Assembly: GCF_000174435.1 (NCBI RefSeq)
Contig: NZ_ACJN02000001.1
Span: forward strand, 919,658-983,657
Direction of reading: 5' to 3'
Length of the DNA stretch: 64,000 nucleotides
Origin: Desulfonatronospira thiodismutans ASO3-1
Lineage (GTDB): Bacteria > Desulfobacterota > Desulfovibrionia > Desulfovibrionales > Desulfonatronovibrionaceae
Numbering within the stretch: the first letter of the stretch is position 1; every line of letters begins with the position of its first letter. Positions 30,322-46,227 of the stretch are shown in pieces. Under the pieces are notes generated by a model that saw only the letters and a list, made by a program, of their open reading frames with translations, did not search any database and was not told where the DNA came from. The position numbers and the translations under genes were made by a program.

Positions 30322-33300
30322 ATGCTCAGTCCCGAAGAACAAAAAGCACAGGATATCATTCAAAAATTTATTCACGACAACATACCTGAATATATTCTGG
30401 AAAACGCCCAGGAACTCTACTCCGAAAACGGCATCCACAAGATTAATGTCAATCAGAGGGATCAGTACCTTGATCTGGAAGGCAGGATCCAGGGAGAGGA
30501 TTTTCAGGTATACAACTCCGAAATCGGTCTCAACCTGGACAGTGAAACCATAAACTTTCACTGCAACTGCCCGGAGTCTTTTACCGGAATCTGCAAACAT
30601 ATTGGTGCCACCGCCCTGAAGTTTCTTGCCGGACTAAGAGAAGAAACAGGTGAAGACACACCTGTCACCAGGACTGAATGGCGGCACACCTTTCGCATAT
30701 ACTTTGCCACCGAGCTGGAGCCCGAGCCGGGTCAACATTACCTGGTTTACAGGTTTTTTCCGGAACCCGGACGACTGCAGGTGGAATTCTACCGGGCCAG
30801 GCAGAACAAAAACGGGCTTTCATCGGTACTCAATCCCGTTACCCTGGAGCAGATCATCCGCAACCCCAACTGGTGCGAAATATCCCCCCAGCTTCCGGAT
30901 GTAGTAACCCAGATAGGCTATTCCCTGGACTATTTCGGACACCGGGTGGAAATACCTCCCGGCCTTTTGACCTGGTTTTTCTGGAGCATCAGAAACGAGT
31001 ATTATCTGTTCTGGGAAGACACAGAGCAGCCGGTACGCGTGGAAACCACATCCATGCGCCTGCAGCTTAGCCCCAGGCTTACAGATGAAGGCCTGGGGTT
31101 TGATATCATGCTTGGACGCGAAGGCAAGCTGCCTTTTTCCATCTCAGGAGAAAAAGCATTCTTTTACGGCCAGCTGCCCTTGTGGGTCTGCTGGAAAAAC
31201 AGCTTCTATCCAGTGCAGACGGGTCTCAACCCCGCCCTGGTGCAGGAACTGGTCTCAGAACAGCCTGTTATTCCCCATAGTGAAATTTCTGAATTTCTGG
31301 ACAGAGTCTGGACCAGGATTCACACTTCCGACCTATACGGCCATGAAGAGTTTCTGGAGCGCATGTCCCCCATTTTTGTACCAGCCGTGTTCAATCCCAA
31401 GCTCTACCTGGACGAGGAGGGCAGCCTGCTTACGCTTCAGATCCAGAATGTATATGAAACAGAGCACGGAGAAATCACCCTTCCCGGTCCCAACCAGGAC
31501 CTGCAGACCGGGAGTTATCAGTTCGAGGGCAAGTCATTTCTGGTGCGCAGAGAACAGGCCAAAGAAGAAGAACTTCTGTCCAACCTGCAGAACATCGGTT
31601 TCCAATCCAGAAACAACAACATGTGGTTTCTGGAGCCTGAAGAGGCCATAACCTTCCTGCTGGATTCCTATCCCAGACTTGTGGAACAGTACCGGGTATA
31701 CGGGGAAAAGAACCTTACCCGGTACCGGGTGAGGCTGAGCCCCCCCAATGTTGTGGCCAAAGTGGACACCTCCAAAGACGACAAGTGGTTCAACCTGGAC
31801 ATCAAAGTCGAATACGACGATATACGGGTACCCATAGAGAAGATATGGAAGGCCTGGATCCAGGGCAAGCGCTATATCCAGCTCAAGGATGGCTCCTACA
31901 CCAGTCTGCCCGAATCCTGGATTAAAAAGCTGGAACACAAGCTGCAGACCATGGGGCTTGACCCGCAGAAAGCCCCCAAAAAGAAATTTCAGAATCACGA
32001 AGTGCCTGTACTGGAAAACATTCTGGATGACATTGACAATGTTCAGGCCGACTCCTTCTGGAACGAACTGCGGGAAAAAATCCATTCCTTCAAAGAAGTC
32101 AGGCAGATTGATCCCCCTCAGGGTCTTAACGCAGAACTGCGCCCTTATCAGCAGCAGGGACTGAGCTACCTGAATTTTCTTTATGAATACCGTTTCGGGG
32201 GAATACTGGCCGATGAAATGGGCCTGGGCAAAACCATCCAGACCCTGGCCTTTTTACAGAAACTAAAGGAGCAAGGCAAAAAAGGCCCCTCCATGATAGT
32301 GGTCCCCACTTCGGTTCTGACCAACTGGGAACGTGAGGCGCAGAAATTCGTACCCTCCATGCAGCGTCTGCTCATTTATGGATCCAGAAGATCGGGCATG
32401 TTCAAAAAAATTAAACAATCCGATCTGATCATTACTACTTACGCCCTGCTGCGCCGTGACCTGGAAGAACTCCAGGAACATGAATACAATGCCATTATCC
32501 TGGACGAAGCCCAGAACATCAAAAACCCCAATACAATAACCGCACGCTCTGTGCGCAAGCTCCAGGCGGATTTCAAGCTTTGCCTGTCCGGGACACCCAT
32601 AGAAAACAACCTGCTGGAACTCTGGTCACTTTTCGAATTTCTCATGCCCGGTTTCCTTGGATCGCAGCACGCCTTTCAGAAAGGCTTTGTAAAGCCCATA
32701 AAGGACGGGGACGAAGAAAGCCTTGCTTACCTGCGCAACCGGGTAAAACCCTTTATAATGCGCCGGACCAAGATCGAGGTGGCCCAGGAACTGCCGCCCA
32801 AGGTGGAAAACGTATACTACAGCGCCCTGATGGATGATCAGCTTGACCTCTACTCCGCCCTGGCCAAAAAGCTCAAGGAGCAGGTCCTGCAAAGGGTGGA
32901 CGAAAAGGGAATATCCGCCAGCCAGATGTCCATACTGGACGCCTTGCTCAAGCTGCGCCAGATATGCTGCCACCCCAGGCTTCTGCGGCTGAATATGCCC
33001 GGGCTGAACAACAACATTCCTTCAGGGAAGTTTGAAGCCTTCAAAGACCTTACCACCAACATAATCGAGGACGGACACAAGGTCCTGGTATTCTCCCAGT
33101 TTGTCCAGATGCTGCATATCATCCGTTCCTGGCTGAATATGAACGAGATCCCCCATGCCTACCTGGACGGTTCCAGTAAGGACCGCCTGGAGCAGGTGGA
33201 TCTGTTCAACAACAACCCGGACATCCCTGTTTTCCTCATATCCCTCAAGGCGGGGGGTACAGGGCTGAACCTGACAGCTGCCGACTATGTCATCCACTAT

Positions 33301-33528
33301 GATCCCTGGTGGAACCCGGCGGTGGAAAACCAGGCCACAGACAGGACGCACCGTATAGGCCAGACCAAGCAGGTGTTCTCCTACAAGATGATCTGTGAAA
33401 ACACCGTTGAAGAAAAGATCCTCAAGCTCCAGGAACAGAAAAAGGGAGTTGCCGAAGCCGTCATTCCCGGTCAGAACGCCTGGAAATCCCTGACCCGGGA
33501 CGACCTGGAAATGCTTTTTGAAGTATAA
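30322..33528 (+). CDS. SNF2-family helicase with SWIM zinc finger
   Basis: 1068-residue DNA translocase of the bacterial SNF2/RapA-like group. N-terminal SWIM finger CNCPESFTGICKH (about 80-92); a long middle region (about 100-590, an SNF2-associated domain); then the helicase core with Walker A ADEMGLGKT (about 632-640), DEAQ (726-729), SGTPIENN, and C-terminal motifs DGSSKDR, KAGGTGLNLTAADYVIHYDPWWNPAVENQA and DRTHRIGQT. These are motifs I to VI in order, so it looks active. It probably remodels protein-DNA or stalled transcription complexes. Its stop overlaps trmL as TAATG. The ATG at 30322 follows GAGGAG. Confidence 0.92.
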   Translation: MLSPEEQKAQDIIQKFIHDNIPEYILENAQELYSENGIHKINVNQRDQYLDLEGRIQGEDFQVYNSEIGLNLDSETINFHCNCPESFTGICKHIGATALKFLAGLREETGEDTPVTRTEWRHTFRIYFATELEPEPGQHYLVYRFFPEPGRLQVEFYRARQNKNGLSSVLNPVTLEQIIRNPNWCEISPQLPDVVTQIGYSLDYFGHRVEIPPGLLTWFFWSIRNEYYLFWEDTEQPVRVETTSMRLQLSPRLTDEGLGFDIMLGREGKLPFSISGEKAFFYGQLPLWVCWKNSFYPVQTGLNPALVQELVSEQPVIPHSEISEFLDRVWTRIHTSDLYGHEEFLERMSPIFVPAVFNPKLYLDEEGSLLTLQIQNVYETEHGEITLPGPNQDLQTGSYQFEGKSFLVRREQAKEEELLSNLQNIGFQSRNNNMWFLEPEEAITFLLDSYPRLVEQYRVYGEKNLTRYRVRLSPPNVVAKVDTSKDDKWFNLDIKVEYDDIRVPIEKIWKAWIQGKRYIQLKDGSYTSLPESWIKKLEHKLQTMGLDPQKAPKKKFQNHEVPVLENILDDIDNVQADSFWNELREKIHSFKEVRQIDPPQGLNAELRPYQQQGLSYLNFLYEYRFGGILADEMGLGKTIQTLAFLQKLKEQGKKGPSMIVVPTSVLTNWEREAQKFVPSMQRLLIYGSRRSGMFKKIKQSDLIITTYALLRRDLEELQEHEYNAIILDEAQNIKNPNTITARSVRKLQADFKLCLSGTPIENNLLELWSLFEFLMPGFLGSQHAFQKGFVKPIKDGDEESLAYLRNRVKPFIMRRTKIEVAQELPPKVENVYYSALMDDQLDLYSALAKKLKEQVLQRVDEKGISASQMSILDALLKLRQICCHPRLLRLNMPGLNNNIPSGKFEAFKDLTTNIIEDGHKVLVFSQFVQMLHIIRSWLNMNEIPHAYLDGSSKDRLEQVDLFNNNPDIPVFLISLKAGGTGLNLTAADYVIHYDPWWNPAVENQATDRTHRIGQTKQVFSYKMICENTVEEKILKLQEQKKGVAEAVIPGQNAWKSLTRDDLEMLFEV

Positions 33529-34806: not shown

Positions 34807-35373
34807 ATGTCAATCTGGTCAAAGCTTGCAGGACTGTTCAAAACCAGCCCTGACCGGCAGGAGGATACAGAAGAACAGGAAGAACAAAACGATCTGCAGG
34901 TCATCCAGGAAATGATCCGCAACCTGCAGAAACGCGAGCGCAGGCAGGCCCAGAATATCGAACGTATGCTCCATGAACTAGGAGCCAGAATGGACAGGCT
35001 GCAGGCCCAGATGAATGCCGGGCTTCCCATGCAGGCCATAACCAGCTTTACGGACAGCCTCTCCATTTATTATCTGCGCAACCATGAATCGGACCAGGCC
35101 TTGAACCAGGTATGGTCCAGGTACACGGCCCTTTTGCAGGAGATGGGCATTGAGCCCATCCTGGATCTGAAAGAAAAATTCGACGATACAAGGCATCATG
35201 CCTGCGACACCCGGCAGCATCCGGATTACCCGGAAAACACCATCCTGGAAGTTGTCCGCCCTGGACTTATGGTGTCAGGCCGGGTAACCCGGCCGGCTGT
35301 GGTGGTTATAAACAAGCCGGGCAACGGTGAACCCGGACATCCGGAACCCAGCCTGCATCGCGAGCAGGTATGA
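34807..35373 (+). CDS. Divergent GrpE-like nucleotide exchange factor
   Basis: 188-residue GrpE relative. A long coiled-coil helix spans about residues 20-72 (EMIRNLQKRERRQAQNIERM...). The C-terminal beta-wing is recognisable: LQEMGIEPILDLKEKFDDTRHHA, then LEVVRPGLMVSGRVTRPAVVVINKPG, which parallels the GrpE pattern G.e.FDp..HeAv ... GY...g.vlRpA.V.V. It would release ADP from the adjacent Hsp70. AAGGA six bases before the ATG at 34807 fixes the start; longer readings begin inside the 151-bp repeat and are not credible. It is much diverged from the canonical GrpE at 43575. Confidence 0.8.
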   Translation: MSIWSKLAGLFKTSPDRQEDTEEQEEQNDLQVIQEMIRNLQKRERRQAQNIERMLHELGARMDRLQAQMNAGLPMQAITSFTDSLSIYYLRNHESDQALNQVWSRYTALLQEMGIEPILDLKEKFDDTRHHACDTRQHPDYPENTILEVVRPGLMVSGRVTRPAVVVINKPGNGEPGHPEPSLHREQV

Positions 35374-35443: not shown

Positions 35444-37171
35444 ATGAAGACAATTTTCGGTATTGACCTCGGCACCACCAACTCCTGCATTTCACGTCTA
35501 AGCCAGGGAGTGCCCGAAGTGATTTCCATCAACGGCTCGCCTCTGGTGCCCTCGGTAGTCAGCTTTGATCAAGGTGAAACCATTGTCGGGACCAGGGCCA
35601 AAAACCGGGAAGTCCTGTACCCGGAAACCACTGTCAGTTCAGTCAAGCGCATCATGGGCACCAGACAAACGATCCCGGTACAGGACAGTGAATACACCCC
35701 GGAAAACATATCCACCTTCATTCTCACGTACCTCAAGGAGCAGGCCCGGGAAATCTGCCAGGAGGAAGTAGAAAACGTGGTCATCACGGTCCCGGCTTAT
35801 TTTTCCGATGCCCAGCGCCGGGCAACCCAGCAAGCCGGCGAAGCAGCCGGACTTAATGTAGAACGGATTATAAACGAACCTACAGCAGCCTCCCTTTTCT
35901 ACAACCACGTGGATACCCCCGGCAAACAGGACAGGCCCGAAAGCCGGGTTCTGGTCTATGACCTGGGTGGCGGGACCTTTGATGTCTCTGTACTGCGCAT
36001 GGGCGAACTGAGCGAGGTCCTGGCAAGCACAGGCAACACCAGTCTGGGGGGAGACGATTTTGACCAGGCCATTGTCAATCTCTGCCTGGAGCAGATCATG
36101 TCCACTTACGGCACAGACCTGCGCGGACACCGTCCAGCCCTGGCCCGGCTCAAGGATGCTGCGGAAAAGGCCAAAATAGCCCTGTCTGCACATCCATTCA
36201 CCTTTATAGAGGAGTCCCTGATCCCCAGCCCATCCAGTGAGGACATCAATCTGTCCCTGGAAATCACCCGGGAAGAATTTGAGTCCATGATCTCACCCTA
36301 TCTGGAAACAACCAGGCAGGAGATGCAAAAAGCCCTGCAGGAAGCCTCCCTTGCAGCCGGGGATATCGACAGTGTGCTTCTGGTTGGCGGATCCACCCGC
36401 ATCCCGGCGGTTATCTCCCTGCTGGAGGAGTATTTCGGGCCTTCCTGCCTGCCCCCTGTGGACCCCGACCTGAGCGTGGCCAAGGGTGCCGCCATTCAGG
36501 GAGGCATCATAAGCGGCTCTCATATTCACCAGGTACTCATAGACGTCAATCCACACACCCTGAGTACCGAGGTCCTGGAAGATCCCGTGAGCATGAAACT
36601 CAAATGCGTCCCCATTATCCCCCGTAATACCCAGATTCCGGTTACCCGCTCCGAGCTTTTCTATACAGTGTTCGACTCCCAGCCCCTGGTCAGGGTAAGC
36701 GTCTACCAGGGCGAATCCACCCAGTCCGGGGAAAATACGCATATAGGCTCCATTGATCTGCAGCTTTCCCCTGCACCGTCTGGCACACCCATAAACATTG
36801 AATACAGCTACGACTTAAACGGAATCATCCGGGTCCGGGTGGAGCAGAAAGGCTACAGCGTCAAGCGCGAGGTGGATCTGGACAGTTCCAGGCAGGACCA
36901 GATGTTTTTAAAGGTGGACCTGGACTCAGATCCGGATATGGATGACCAGCCTGATGAAAGTCCCCGGGGCAGCCAGCAGACCACAAACTATATACTGCAC
37001 AAGGCCCGCGGTATGCTTGACGAACTGTCCGGGGATGCCTCCAGAAACACCCTCAAGTCCCTGATAAAGGATTATGAAGACGCATTGCAGGGAGACGACG
37101 AAGACGCTGTGGACGAGGCCGAAGAAACTCTGGTGGACTACATGGACGAACTGCAGGAAAGAGAAGAGTAA
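35444..37171 (+). CDS. Second Hsp70 (short DnaK paralogue)
   Basis: 575-residue Hsp70. The ATPase domain (1-375) is complete: [20 protein letters not shown] (catalytic Lys), [37 protein letters not shown] and [12 protein letters not shown]. The linker reads [12 protein letters not shown] instead of the [12 protein letters not shown] of the canonical DnaK in this window. The substrate-binding beta domain runs to about 490, and the lid is shortened to one acidic helical segment (about 510-575). Where canonical DnaK has EVKRIINEP at the J-protein contact, this one has NVERIINEP. It overlaps the next gene by one base (TAATG). It is not HscA, since no isc genes are near. Confidence 0.92.
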
Positions 37172-39321
37172 TGGCCAGAAAAGGCAAGCGCTCCAAAAAA
37201 GGCAAACCAGCCAGGTCCCCTTCAAAAAAGCTTGAAGCAAGGCTTCTGGGCTACTGGAAAAAAGAGGCCTGGGAAGAATTCATCACCCTTTACCAGCGGC
37301 ACCGGGATACTGCATCCAAAACCAGTGCGGCTTCCTGCTGGAACCCGGCCATTTACAACCTGCTGCTCAAGACCCTTGTTCACCACCAGAAAATCGAAAC
37401 CCTGGAGAATGTGCATAAAGGTCTGAAGCAGGCACCGGACCTGAACTCTGAAAACACGCAGTGCCTGAATGTGGTGCAGGCCTTGATTGATGTTTATCAC
37501 GGCCGGGGATATCCGGGCATGGCCGACAGCCTGCCCCGGGATCTGCCTGATCCTTTTGCAGAACTGGCCCAGGGGCTAAGAGAAATCCTCTGCGGGAATA
37601 TGTCGGCCCTGCACCTGTACGTCCAAGGCGGGCTCACCCGGGCCAGGAAGAATGAAAAGCACCTTTCCCTGGCCGCCCGGGCGGCCAGGGAGTTCAACAA
37701 TCTTGCCGCTATTAATTTTCAAACACCTTCAGTCAAACCCCTGACCAGGATTAGAAAACATTTCCAGGAGCTTCATGACTACTTTACCACGAATTTCCAG
37801 GAAAAATCCGTGGAGCTCAAAAACCTGCGCGTCCTGGCAGAGGCCATGCACCTTTTGTACTCCAGGCCGGGCCACTTCATGGATCCCCATTCAGTCCAGG
37901 GCTACCTGCACCGTTCAGGGTTCAGTCAAAGCAGCCATCCGGCGGTAACCGCCATGTACCAGGCCTTTTTGACCCTGGGAGGCAATATCATGGGCCGGAA
38001 CTGGAAAGATACTGCCTCTTACGGTCTGCAGAGTTATGCTCCTGAAGCACAGTCTGACCTGCCATCCCATGTACAGGGTCAGCTTGCGGCTCTGTCCAGA
38101 ATCAGAAAAAAAGATACTGATTCACTTTATATCCTCCAGGAACTGCTGGACTTTGATGTGTGGTCCGAAAGGGAAAGAATGATCCTGTTGCAGGCCCGGA
38201 TGCAACAGATGGTTGAACGGTTTGAGGAGTTTTTTGACTATCTGCATGACCTGGCCATGGAAGATGGAGAAAAACAGGCCAGAAAGGCCCTCAAGGATCA
38301 TATGCAGCAGTCCTGCTCTGATCTCCAGGAAATTGCTGAGTTGTACCAAAAGCTGGGGCTCAGCAATGAATCCATTATATCCACGCCTTTTAAGTACTGG
38401 TTTGATTTTTATCAGGAACTGGCATTCCTGGACAACTACATGCTCTTAGACAGGTTGATAAAGAATTTATGCGACTTGCCTGTCCCTGATTCTGTCTTTC
38501 TGGGGCTGATATATAAACGGTCTGAACAGTCTCCTGCCCCTGAAGCACTGGAGTCCTTAAAAAAGATACAGCAGAAAAGAGCGCCCTTGAAAATCAGCCA
38601 CCAGGAAATAAAAGATTATGTCCTGGTCCTGCCTGGTTGGATGTACACAGAAAAAATACTCCGGGGCTGGAAAGCATGCCTGAGCCGGGAAGATTACCGT
38701 TTTGCCATTGAAACTTTGCTGGTTTCCATCCTGGATCACGAATTTCAAAGCCTGTACAGCCCGTCCTACAGAGAGACCGACTGGTTCCTATGGGAAGAGA
38801 TTCCGCAGCATTTACTGGAAGCCTTTCTCAAGGAACTGGGACCGGAATCGCCAGTGTTCGGCCTGTTGAACTTGAGCGCAAATACATCCGGGAGGACGAT
38901 GCCCGCAAACGCAAAAGAGGCAGATTTTTTTACCAAGTATATGCCTCCGCCCGATACTCTGCACAAGATTATCCTCTGGATGCTTACCTGGCCGTCTTCT
39001 CCATACAAAAATAAATTTATGGCCCAGCTTATAAAACACAACCTGGAACATTTTAACCGCATCGAAGCCTGGGATCATCTGGTCAAGGTGATCGCCTATA
39101 AAAAAATGAAAGTCCTGGCCGGCATGGTCCGGGATATCTGGGCGGAAAAAGATCTGTTCACCACCCTGGCCTCGCACCAGGATTTTCAGAATGCAGTGAA
39201 CACAATGAATGCAAAATTCCCTCAGAAGCAGGCCAAAGGTGGAAAAAAAGGGAAGAAGCAGGCCCTGAAACAAAACAGTATGCTGGATCTGATGCAGGAT
39301 CAGGAAAAAAAGTCCAGTTAA
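37171..39321 (+). CDS. Large helical protein of unknown family in the second Hsp70 operon
   Basis: 716 residues, predicted soluble and almost entirely alpha-helical. Basic tails lie at both ends ([36 protein letters not shown]). Helical hairpin-like segments such as YNLLLKTLVHHQKIETLENVHKG and WLDLA-type repeats suggest a TPR- or solenoid-like scaffold, but I recognise no family. It starts on the last base of the Hsp70 stop (TAATG) and is followed after 12 bp by the J-domain gene, so it should be made stoichiometrically with the chaperones. It may be their dedicated client, adaptor or substrate-delivery factor; that is inference from position only. Confidence 0.75.
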   Translation: MARKGKRSKKGKPARSPSKKLEARLLGYWKKEAWEEFITLYQRHRDTASKTSAASCWNPAIYNLLLKTLVHHQKIETLENVHKGLKQAPDLNSENTQCLNVVQALIDVYHGRGYPGMADSLPRDLPDPFAELAQGLREILCGNMSALHLYVQGGLTRARKNEKHLSLAARAAREFNNLAAINFQTPSVKPLTRIRKHFQELHDYFTTNFQEKSVELKNLRVLAEAMHLLYSRPGHFMDPHSVQGYLHRSGFSQSSHPAVTAMYQAFLTLGGNIMGRNWKDTASYGLQSYAPEAQSDLPSHVQGQLAALSRIRKKDTDSLYILQELLDFDVWSERERMILLQARMQQMVERFEEFFDYLHDLAMEDGEKQARKALKDHMQQSCSDLQEIAELYQKLGLSNESIISTPFKYWFDFYQELAFLDNYMLLDRLIKNLCDLPVPDSVFLGLIYKRSEQSPAPEALESLKKIQQKRAPLKISHQEIKDYVLVLPGWMYTEKILRGWKACLSREDYRFAIETLLVSILDHEFQSLYSPSYRETDWFLWEEIPQHLLEAFLKELGPESPVFGLLNLSANTSGRTMPANAKEADFFTKYMPPPDTLHKIILWMLTWPSSPYKNKFMAQLIKHNLEHFNRIEAWDHLVKVIAYKKMKVLAGMVRDIWAEKDLFTTLASHQDFQNAVNTMNAKFPQKQAKGGKKGKKQALKQNSMLDLMQDQEKKSS

Positions 39322-39333
39322 GGAGAACAGCAA

Positions 39334-39759
39334 ATGCTGGAGCAAGACCACCGGATTTTGAGGGTTGATCGCGACGCAGACCAGGAAAGTATCCGCAAAT
39401 CATACATAAAGTTGTCCCGCAGATATCATCCGGAGCATTTTCCGGAAAAATTCCGGAGAATTAAATGTGCCTACGAAAGACTGAGCCTGGACCCCTCAAC
39501 TCTTGCGGACATCACCAGAGAATTAGCCCGCGCCGAAAGCACGGACCAGATTACCAGCCTGATAATCAAGCAGGCCGGAACGGAGGCGACAGAAAAAAAG
39601 AAGAAAGAGGAGTTGCTTATGGACCCTATGACCCTGGAACCTGTTTTGAATGTCAGGACAGTAAGGCAGAAAATAAGCGGACTGCTTCAGGATATTGAAA
39701 AAAAGGGAATTAAGTATAAAACTGCCGAAGAAACCGGCCGGAATGAAGGGGCAGGATAA
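39334..39759 (+). CDS. J-domain protein with HPE in place of HPD
   Basis: 141 residues. The first 55 form a compact J-domain: DHRILRVDRDADQESIRKSYIKLSRRY, then HPEHFPEKFRRIKCAYERLS. The universally conserved HPD, needed to stimulate Hsp70 ATPase, reads HPE (CAT CCG GAG at 39427-39435). The remaining 80 residues are helical and charged (EKKKKEELL, VRQKISGLLQDIEKK), with none of the Gly/Phe region, zinc fingers or client domains of DnaJ. Last gene of the grpE-like/Hsp70/unknown/J operon; AAGGAG precedes the ATG. It is probably the dedicated cochaperone, or a deliberately weak one. Confidence 0.8.
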   Translation: MLEQDHRILRVDRDADQESIRKSYIKLSRRYHPEHFPEKFRRIKCAYERLSLDPSTLADITRELARAESTDQITSLIIKQAGTEATEKKKKEELLMDPMTLEPVLNVRTVRQKISGLLQDIEKKGIKYKTAEETGRNEGAG

Positions 39760-39852: not shown

Positions 39853-39928
39853 TGGTGGGCGGTCGGAGATTTGAACTCCGGACTTCCACCGTGTGAAGAT
39901 GGCACTCTCACCGCTGAGTTAACCGCCC
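39853..39928 (-). tRNA. tRNA-Val(CAC)
   Basis: Full cloverleaf on the minus strand: acceptor GGGCGGT/ACCGCCC, D stem ACTC/GAGT, anticodon stem CCATC/GGTGG with loop TTCACAC (anticodon CAC, reading GUG), T arm CGGAG-TTCAAAT-CTCCG. The CCA end is encoded (39853-39855). The flanking 498-bp gap (39760-40257) otherwise holds only a 14-bp tandem duplication (ACTTCTGATCTCTG twice, about 40172-40199) and AT-rich DNA. Confidence 0.93.
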
Positions 39929-42393: not shown

Positions 42394-42450
42394 TTGACAG
42401 AAAGGGGTGGCGTTGTTACTTGATTAGCACTCTCAACACAAGAGTGCTAA
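42394..42450 (+). promoter_or_regulatory. hrcA heat-shock promoter with CIRCE operator
   Basis: TTGACA at 42394-42399 and a weak -10 near 42416-42421 (TTACTT, 16-base spacer) lead into a perfect CIRCE element: TTAGCACTC-N9-GAGTGCTAA at 42424-42450. HrcA binds CIRCE and represses the operon in the absence of heat stress. The operator is 13 bp before the hrcA ATG, so the gene is autoregulated. No CIRCE is seen before the second Hsp70 operon. Confidence 0.9.
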
Positions 42451-44304: not shown

Positions 44305-46227
44305 ATGGGCAAGATAATCGGAATCGACCTGGGAACCACCAACAGTTGCGTATATGTGATGGAAGGCAAGGAAGCCAAGTGCATAAGCAACCCTGAAGGC
44401 GGACGCACAACCCCATCCATTGTAGCTTTTACAGATAAAGAACGTCTGGTCGGGGAAATCGCCAAAAGGCAATCCGTGACCAATCCGGAAAAGACTGTTT
44501 ATTCAGTCAAGCGGCTCATGGGCCGTCAGTACGACGACCCGGTGCTCAAGAACTGGATCGAGAGGTGCTCCTACAAAATTGTAAAAGGCAAAAACGACGA
44601 CGCCTACGTGCAGGTGGGCGACAACACTTACAGCCCGCCGGAAATATCGGCCATGATCCTGCAGAAGCTCAAAAGCGACGCAGAATCATACCTCGGGGAA
44701 ACTGTTTCCGAGGCGGTCATAACCGTTCCGGCCTATTTCAACGACAGCCAGCGCCAGGCCACCAAGGATGCCGGCCGCGTTGCCGGACTTGAGGTAAAAC
44801 GCATAATCAACGAACCTACTGCCGCATCCCTGGCTTATGGTGCCGACAAGAATGTCAACGAAAAGATAGCTGTCTTTGACCTGGGTGGTGGAACATTCGA
44901 CATATCCATCCTGGAAGTGGGCGACAACCTGGTGGAAGTGCGCTCAACCCACGGCGACACCTTCCTGGGCGGAGAGGACTTTGACCAGCGTATCATTAAT
45001 CACTTGGTGGATGAATTCAAAAAGGAGAACGGCATCGACCTCTCCCAGGACCGCATGGCTCTGCAGAGGCTCAGGGAAGCTGCTGAAAAGGCCAAGAAAG
45101 AACTTTCCACCACCATGGAAACAGATATCAATCTGCCCTTTATCACTGCGGATCAAAACGGCCCCAAGCACATGAACATGAAGCTTACCAGGAGCAAACT
45201 GGAGAGCCTGGTGGAAGACCTGGTGCAAAGGACCATCGGACCCTGCGAAAAGGCCTTGAGCGATGCGGATCTCAAGGCCAACGACATCAACCAGGTACTC
45301 CTTGTGGGCGGCCAGACCAGGATGCCCCTGGTACAGAAAAAGGTATCCGAATTCTTTGGCAAAGACCCCAACAAGAGCGTCAACCCCGACGAGGTCGTGG
45401 CCATGGGCGCAGCCATCCAGGGCGGCATCTTTGCTGGAGATGTCAAGGATGTCCTGCTTCTGGACGTAACTCCCTTGTCCCTGGGTATTGAAACCATGGG
45501 CGGCGTGTTCACCAAGCTCATCGAGCGCAACACCACCATCCCCACCCGCAAGAGCCAGATATTCACCACGGCTGCGGACAATCAGCCCTCGGTTTCCATC
45601 CATGTACTCCAGGGAGAGCGCCCCATGGCAGCAGACAACATGACTCTGGGCCGCTTTGAGCTCACCGGTATCCCCCCGGCACCCCGCGGCGTACCTCAGA
45701 TCGAGGTCACCTTTGATATCGACGCCAACGGTCTGGTCAACGTCTCGGCCAAGGATACCGGCACCGGCAAGGAGCAGTCCATCCAGATCACTGCTTCCAG
45801 CGGTCTGTCCGAAGAAGAGATAAACAATCTCGTCAAGGAAGCCGAAAGCCATGCCGAGGAAGACAAGAAAAAACAAAGACTCATCGAAGCCAGAAACCAT
45901 GCCGACACCCTGATCTACACCACTGAAAAGTCCATCCGGGACCTGGGCGAAAACCTGGATGCCGAACTCAAGGCGGACATAGAAAACAAGATTCAGGAAC
46001 TAAAAAACGTCATGGAAGGCGAAGACGAGGAAGCCATCCGCAAGGCTACAGAAGACCTGTCCCAGGCTTCGCACAAACTGGCTGAAAAGCTTTACGCCCA
46101 GAAGACCCAGTCCGGCGAAGCAGGGCAGCAGGACCAGGGCGAGGCCCAGACCGGACAGCAGGGTGCTCAAAGCGCCGAAGAAGATGTGGTGGATGCAGAT
46201 TACACCGAGGTCAACGACAAGAAATAA
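44305..46227 (+). CDS. dnaK: Chaperone DnaK (Hsp70)
   Basis: 640 residues, full canonical length. [85 protein letters not shown], the linker [16 protein letters not shown], the beta domain and a full helical lid ending in a Gln/Gly-rich tail with VVDADYTEV. It folds and disaggregates proteins with DnaJ (not in the window) and GrpE. AAGGAGG precedes the ATG. It is regulated through CIRCE at 42424. Confidence 0.97.

Follow-up and report, generated by a model that had tools for sequence, protein, structure and literature searches.

We found that Desulfonatronospira thiodismutans, a sulfate-reducer-type bacterium, carries a self-contained second Hsp70 chaperone set whose J-domain protein reads HPE in place of HPD, the textbook signature carried by almost all J-proteins. 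The DNA analysed was a stretch of 64,000 nucleotides, referred to here as the window. We document the anatomy of the set, its linkage, the loop class and motif spectrum of its J-domains, and the position of its Hsp70 in the family tree. We consider it probable that the GrpE-like factor, an Hsp70 from the HscC side of the tree, an alpha-solenoid protein and a short-loop J-protein together form a dedicated Hsp70 machine separate from the CIRCE-controlled DnaK, and that HPE is a tolerated state in this machine.

The second Hsp70 set is encoded by a tight run of genes, all on the forward strand. It begins with a gene for a GrpE-like nucleotide exchange factor (34807..35373, 188 amino acids; Pfam GrpE, 55.6 bits against a cut-off of 25.8), whose ATG start at 34807 was chosen by homology to relatives. 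The specialised Hsp70 follows (35444..37171, 575 amino acids; Pfam HSP70, 449 bits), assigned also by alignment and tree, and its stop is overlapped by the start of a gene for a 716-amino-acid, all-helical protein that is conserved in the operon and predicted by AlphaFold2 to be an alpha-solenoid (37171..39321). The gene for the J-domain protein (39334..39759, 141 amino acids) comes last, with AAGGAG shortly 5´ of its ATG. The hrcA-grpE-dnaK operon lies approximately 2.7 kb downstream of the J gene. It is preceded by a perfect CIRCE element (42424..42450, forward strand; an exact match, with 0 expected in shuffles) and encodes the canonical DnaK used for comparison (44305..46227, forward strand; NCBIfam prok_dnaK, 985 bits against a cut-off of 822.55). 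No CIRCE element was found before the operon of the second Hsp70, and CIRCE control of that operon was rejected for this reason. We found neither a client nor a conserved neighbour outside the operon. A tRNA-Val(CAC) gene on the minus strand (39853-39928) is located directly downstream of the J gene and is a possible insertion point for the module. Upstream of the operon is a SNF2-type helicase-like ORF (30322-33528), a close homologue of which also adjoins the operon in another genome (G022, locus L026).

The J-domain occupies residues 7-51 of the 141-amino-acid ORF (Pfam PF00226 DnaJ, 41 bits against a gathering cut-off of 27.8), and the protein as a whole is laid out as a short-loop J-domain (residues 1-52) and a variable helical C-terminal part. 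The predicted model has a pLDDT of at least 87 over residues 1-50, contains the helix II - loop - helix III hairpin fold, and matches the J-domain of DnaJ (5nro_B; Z 7.9, rmsd 3.3, 57 residues). The HPD signature of PF00226 is replaced by HPE in the window protein and by PPE in most relatives. The initial annotation had drawn attention to this motif and its GAG codon, and we confirmed it: the codons CAT CCG GAG (39427..39435, forward strand) encode H32-P33-E34, equivalent to H33-P34-D35 of E. coli DnaJ, within the domain matched by Pfam. The same codons are present in a near relative (L057/L027) that was assembled independently, so HPE is not a sequencing error. HPE itself has precedent, since it is carried by DjlB and DjlC, the partners of HscC (PMC13254874, PMC8215388), and it has been described from these proteins with HscC as the only tolerated replacement of HPD (PMC13254874).

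What sets this J-protein and its relatives apart is the helix II-III loop. We compared 45 J-domains, those of HscC partners among them, that are linked to HscC-side Hsp70s. In every one (45/45) the loop, counted from motif position 3 to the helix III Phe, is exactly five residues long, as against 10-12 residues in 8/8 HPD controls. None of the 45 reads HPD; the motifs are PPE (31), HPE (4), PPD (4), PPQ (2), RPD (2), DIE (1) and PAH (1). Within this set, which was gathered via the Hsp70 and covers no short-loop J-domains elsewhere, the short loop is seen only where the partner is an HscC-side Hsp70. HscC partners on plasmids (L105-L108) carry RPD in Pseudomonas, Rahnella and Rhizobium and DIE in Paracoccus, with the same short loop. 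The four HPE carriers are the window protein, its counterpart in genome G017, DjlC and the Erwinia partner. The Hsp70s of the window and of G017 group together (99/99) within those of PPE relatives, and a single base separates the two codons at motif position 1 (CCT to CAT). Given this nesting of the window HPE in a PPE clade, its His looks like a reversion, regained from PPE. We suggest that, in the five-residue-loop class, positions 1 and 3 of HPD may be free to vary, and that HPE would be one tolerated state rather than a lesion matched by K166E.

Current models route the activating signal via the HPD His to the interdomain linker. In simulation work H33 relays this signal to L391 (PMC13012618), and DnaJ does not tolerate changes of H33 (PMC13012618, PMC13254874). 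The PPE members, if active, would contradict a requirement for the H33 relay. PPE is puzzling, since a working PPE is not expected from current models of Hsp70 activation. Our literature search, which covered few subscription papers, returned no account of PPE J-domains and no biochemistry for the PPE/HPE short-loop J-protein family. A tentative reading, which we put forward as a possibility that may well prove wrong, is that the PPE short-loop class of several phyla fully activates its dedicated Hsp70, that the His-to-linker relay is bypassed, and that the window lineage has regained the His. The conserved PPE/HPE short-loop family provides natural pairs for asking which HPD contacts are needed, and the same pairs bear on how a second Hsp70 stays apart from DnaK in one cell.

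The main rival to a dedicated machine is that the window protein is a type IV (pseudo) J-protein without ATPase-stimulating activity, which would act as a Pam16-like scaffold or regulator docked to either the Hsp70 or the alpha-solenoid, while a normal J-protein of the cell stimulates the Hsp70. Most relatives do lack both the His and the Asp, and substitutions of H33 and D35 are usually inactive in DnaJ (PMC13254874), but almost every member retains the Pro at P34, the acid and the Hsp70 R167, the pattern expected for a working contact. HPE has also been reported to be functional with HscC (PMC13254874). A normal J-protein could come from elsewhere in the genome, where the window protein is the only non-HPD member among ten J-domains and the other nine are all HPD; the operon itself holds no second J-protein. 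The highest structural row for the J model is the Pam16-like Tim16 (2guz_B, Z 8.7), though it is tied with ordinary J-domains. While the window family resembles type IV J-domain proteins such as Pam16 in having a recognisable J fold with an altered HPD, it differs from them in conserving the acid and the Pro and in having its gene alone with its Hsp70, and we regard a pseudo-J role as unlikely.

The Hsp70 of the set belongs to a clade of its own. It scores under the NCBIfam cut-offs for both DnaK (TIGR02350, 471.5 against 822.55) and HscA (TIGR01991, 358.2 against 708.55), and it is without the segment matching DnaK 76-101, leaving a 24-residue gap in the alignment. Gram-positive-type DnaKs (2v7y) likewise align with it without the 24-residue gap, so the missing segment is not diagnostic alone. 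In a bootstrapped tree, HscC and the window Hsp70 family split from DnaK and HscA at 98/99, and the window family joins relatives from Acetobacteraceae, a Planctomycete and Nostoc with support of 100/98. The HscC sequences, which came from E. coli and plasmids, form a 100/100 group that excludes the window Hsp70 and stands on a long branch (1.04), and this branch length means that the sister placement of HscC could be partly an artefact.

A search with the substrate-binding part of the Hsp70, which is blind to the J motif, yielded 47 loci in named genomes. The operon is sporadic: of 199 genomes from the order, 8 have it. Searches with the Hsp70 and by order and phylum located it in Desulfonatronospira, other Desulfovibrionales, Adiutrix, other deltaproteobacterial bins and many Synergistaceae, with more distant operons in Acetobacteraceae, Planctomycetaceae and cyanobacterial plasmids. 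Gene order varies between grpE-hsp70-solenoid-J and grpE-J-hsp70-solenoid, and the set is kept together. Two bins named Desulfovibrio (L082, L102) have Hsp70s nested with those of Adiutrix and Synergistaceae, a position that suggests either transfer of the module or misbinning. A phage origin was rejected, with only three weak J-domain matches in phages.

These data bear on whether the HPE J-protein might instead work with the canonical DnaK and merely happen to be encoded next to the second Hsp70. The hrcA-grpE-dnaK operon is indeed close by, but the J gene is linked to the second Hsp70 across Desulfobacterota and Synergistota wherever dnaK lies, and the loop class occurs only with HscC-side Hsp70 partners in the set examined; we judge service to DnaK to be improbable. 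The initial annotation had also raised the idea of a pair insulated from DnaK. A dedicated J-Hsp70 pair, kept separate from DnaK, is plausible in light of this linkage across phyla, the presence of only two Hsp70s in the genome (the canonical DnaK and the one at 35444-37171), and the precedent of HscC/DjlC, a known case of a pair separated from DnaK (PMC8215388).

On DnaK, the HPD contacts described are those of the Asp with R167 and Q378, of the Pro (by packing) with P419 and of the His (by a bond) with the L391 backbone (PMC8215388). By alignment, the window Hsp70 keeps R167, N170, Q378, L391, D393 and P419 (DnaK numbering), as well as the catalytic residues. Among PPE/HPE members R167, N170, Q378, D393 and P419 of the Hsp70 are kept, with the exception of the Q378D pair L082/L102. 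In the model that we propose, the J-domain would dock on its own Hsp70 like DnaJ on DnaK, with Pro33 packing on the Hsp70 Pro at 419 and Glu34 bridging to the retained Arg141 (R167), and the His-to-linker contact would be dispensable or replaced in the short-loop class. The alpha-solenoid and the C-terminal part of the J-protein may bring the client, and the GrpE-like factor would then reset the cycle.

Around this Arg, the window Hsp70 reads NVERIINEP and the canonical DnaK of the window EVKRIINEP, as had been noted in the initial annotation, which took the Hsp70 to be changed at the contact. The Lys-to-Glu change at E140 is real, but the contacting Arg, R141, is unchanged (E140-R141, 35861..35866, forward strand, equivalent to K166-R167 in an alignment to E. 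coli DnaK). We found the further proposal, that Glu beside the contact Arg compensates for the Asp-to-Glu change in a coevolved pair, to be very improbable. Of the 35 rows whose J motif ends in Glu, 31 have an acid at Hsp70 position 166, but nearly all of these 31 belong to one clade. Phylogenetically independent pairs on the Hsp70 tree showed no association between the J motif and position 166 in a comparison of low power (n=3; trait b the same way 1.0, the other way 1.3), and it is explicit counterexamples that carry the point. In Listeria and Streptococcus, canonical operons (hrcA-grpE-dnaK-dnaJ) pair EVERI with HPD, and Synechococcus, which lies on the DnaK side and not in the family, pairs VERI with HPD. 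Among DnaK chains in the PDB, 2v7y has EVERIINEP and 5obu has NVERIINEP, exactly the sequence of the window Hsp70. Conversely, HscC of E. coli and Erwinia reads AVRL, with Val at 166, and has an HPE partner, and locus L091 combines PPE with VVRI. PPQ is found with VLRL (L077/L078), and PPD with VVRI in Acetobacteraceae members. In addition, two like charges at the site would have no obvious compensating effect.

Other candidate matched positions were also rejected. For the published coevolving Hsp70-J pairs 187-23 and 189-19 (PMC5519331), there was no consistent charge match across relatives, as judged by eye only for 189-19. J position 26 is hydrophobic in most short-loop members and Hsp70 position 206 is Arg in the window Hsp70 clade, but position 206 is still acidic in the HscC partners, and the covariation is not clean. 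In cyanobacterial plasmids (L111, L112, L117, L118), TPR-J-grpE-Hsp70 operons encode a J-domain with PAH and an Hsp70 with Gln at the R167 position; at the level of sequence, this single lineage shows a matched loss of both residues of the Asp-Arg contact. The Pseudomonas HscC of a plasmid locus has Lys at the R167 position. Finally, the occurrence of several motifs (PPE, PPD, PPQ, RPD, DIE, PAH) might be read as decay under relaxed selection, but we regard this as very improbable, as RR-Y-PPE-x-FPE-K/R-F is the best conserved stretch of the J-protein (P33 41/41, P37 40/41, F40 39/41, E34 35/41) and both the J gene (dN/dS 0.24-0.39) and the Hsp70 (0.10-0.14) are under purifying selection, with values well below 1.

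The dedicated machine that we favor shares features with several known systems. Like E. coli HscC with DjlB/DjlC, it combines an HscC-side Hsp70, without the DnaK 76-101 segment, with a linked J partner that carries HPE and an identical five-residue loop. In contrast, the window Hsp70 belongs to a sister clade and not inside HscC, and its operon is headed by its own GrpE-like gene and includes an alpha-solenoid, whereas HscC works without GrpE; because of this GrpE-like gene we did not file the window Hsp70 as HscC. Unlike DjlB/DjlC, the J-protein is also short and its sequence shows no tail anchor, and its relatives are mostly PPE. With the canonical DnaK-DnaJ-GrpE system it has in common the combination of Hsp70, GrpE and J-domain, together with the catalytic residues and R167, N170, Q378 and P419. 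It departs from canonical DnaK in the short C-terminal tail of the Hsp70, the lack of CIRCE, the score under the NCBIfam cut-off and the J motif. The TPR-J-GrpE-Hsp70 operons of cyanobacterial plasmids and Acetobacteraceae have the same four gene kinds, the same loop length and the nearest Hsp70 clade, but they encode a TPR protein where the window has an alpha-solenoid, and their motifs are PAH or PPD.

For the 716-amino-acid protein, neither Pfam nor NCBIfam gave a match over cut-off, and a comparison of its sequence with the PDB gave nothing convincing. The AlphaFold2 model is confident and consists entirely of helices arranged as a solenoid (mean pLDDT 85.6), for which Foldseek against the PDB returned nothing at E < 0.001 and only middling helical-repeat matches. 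The operons with PPD or PAH motifs include a TPR protein among their genes, which by analogy suggests an adaptor or client-binding role for the solenoid. At one locus (L087:7669-12054), the Hsp70 is followed by the alpha-solenoid gene in two tandem copies.
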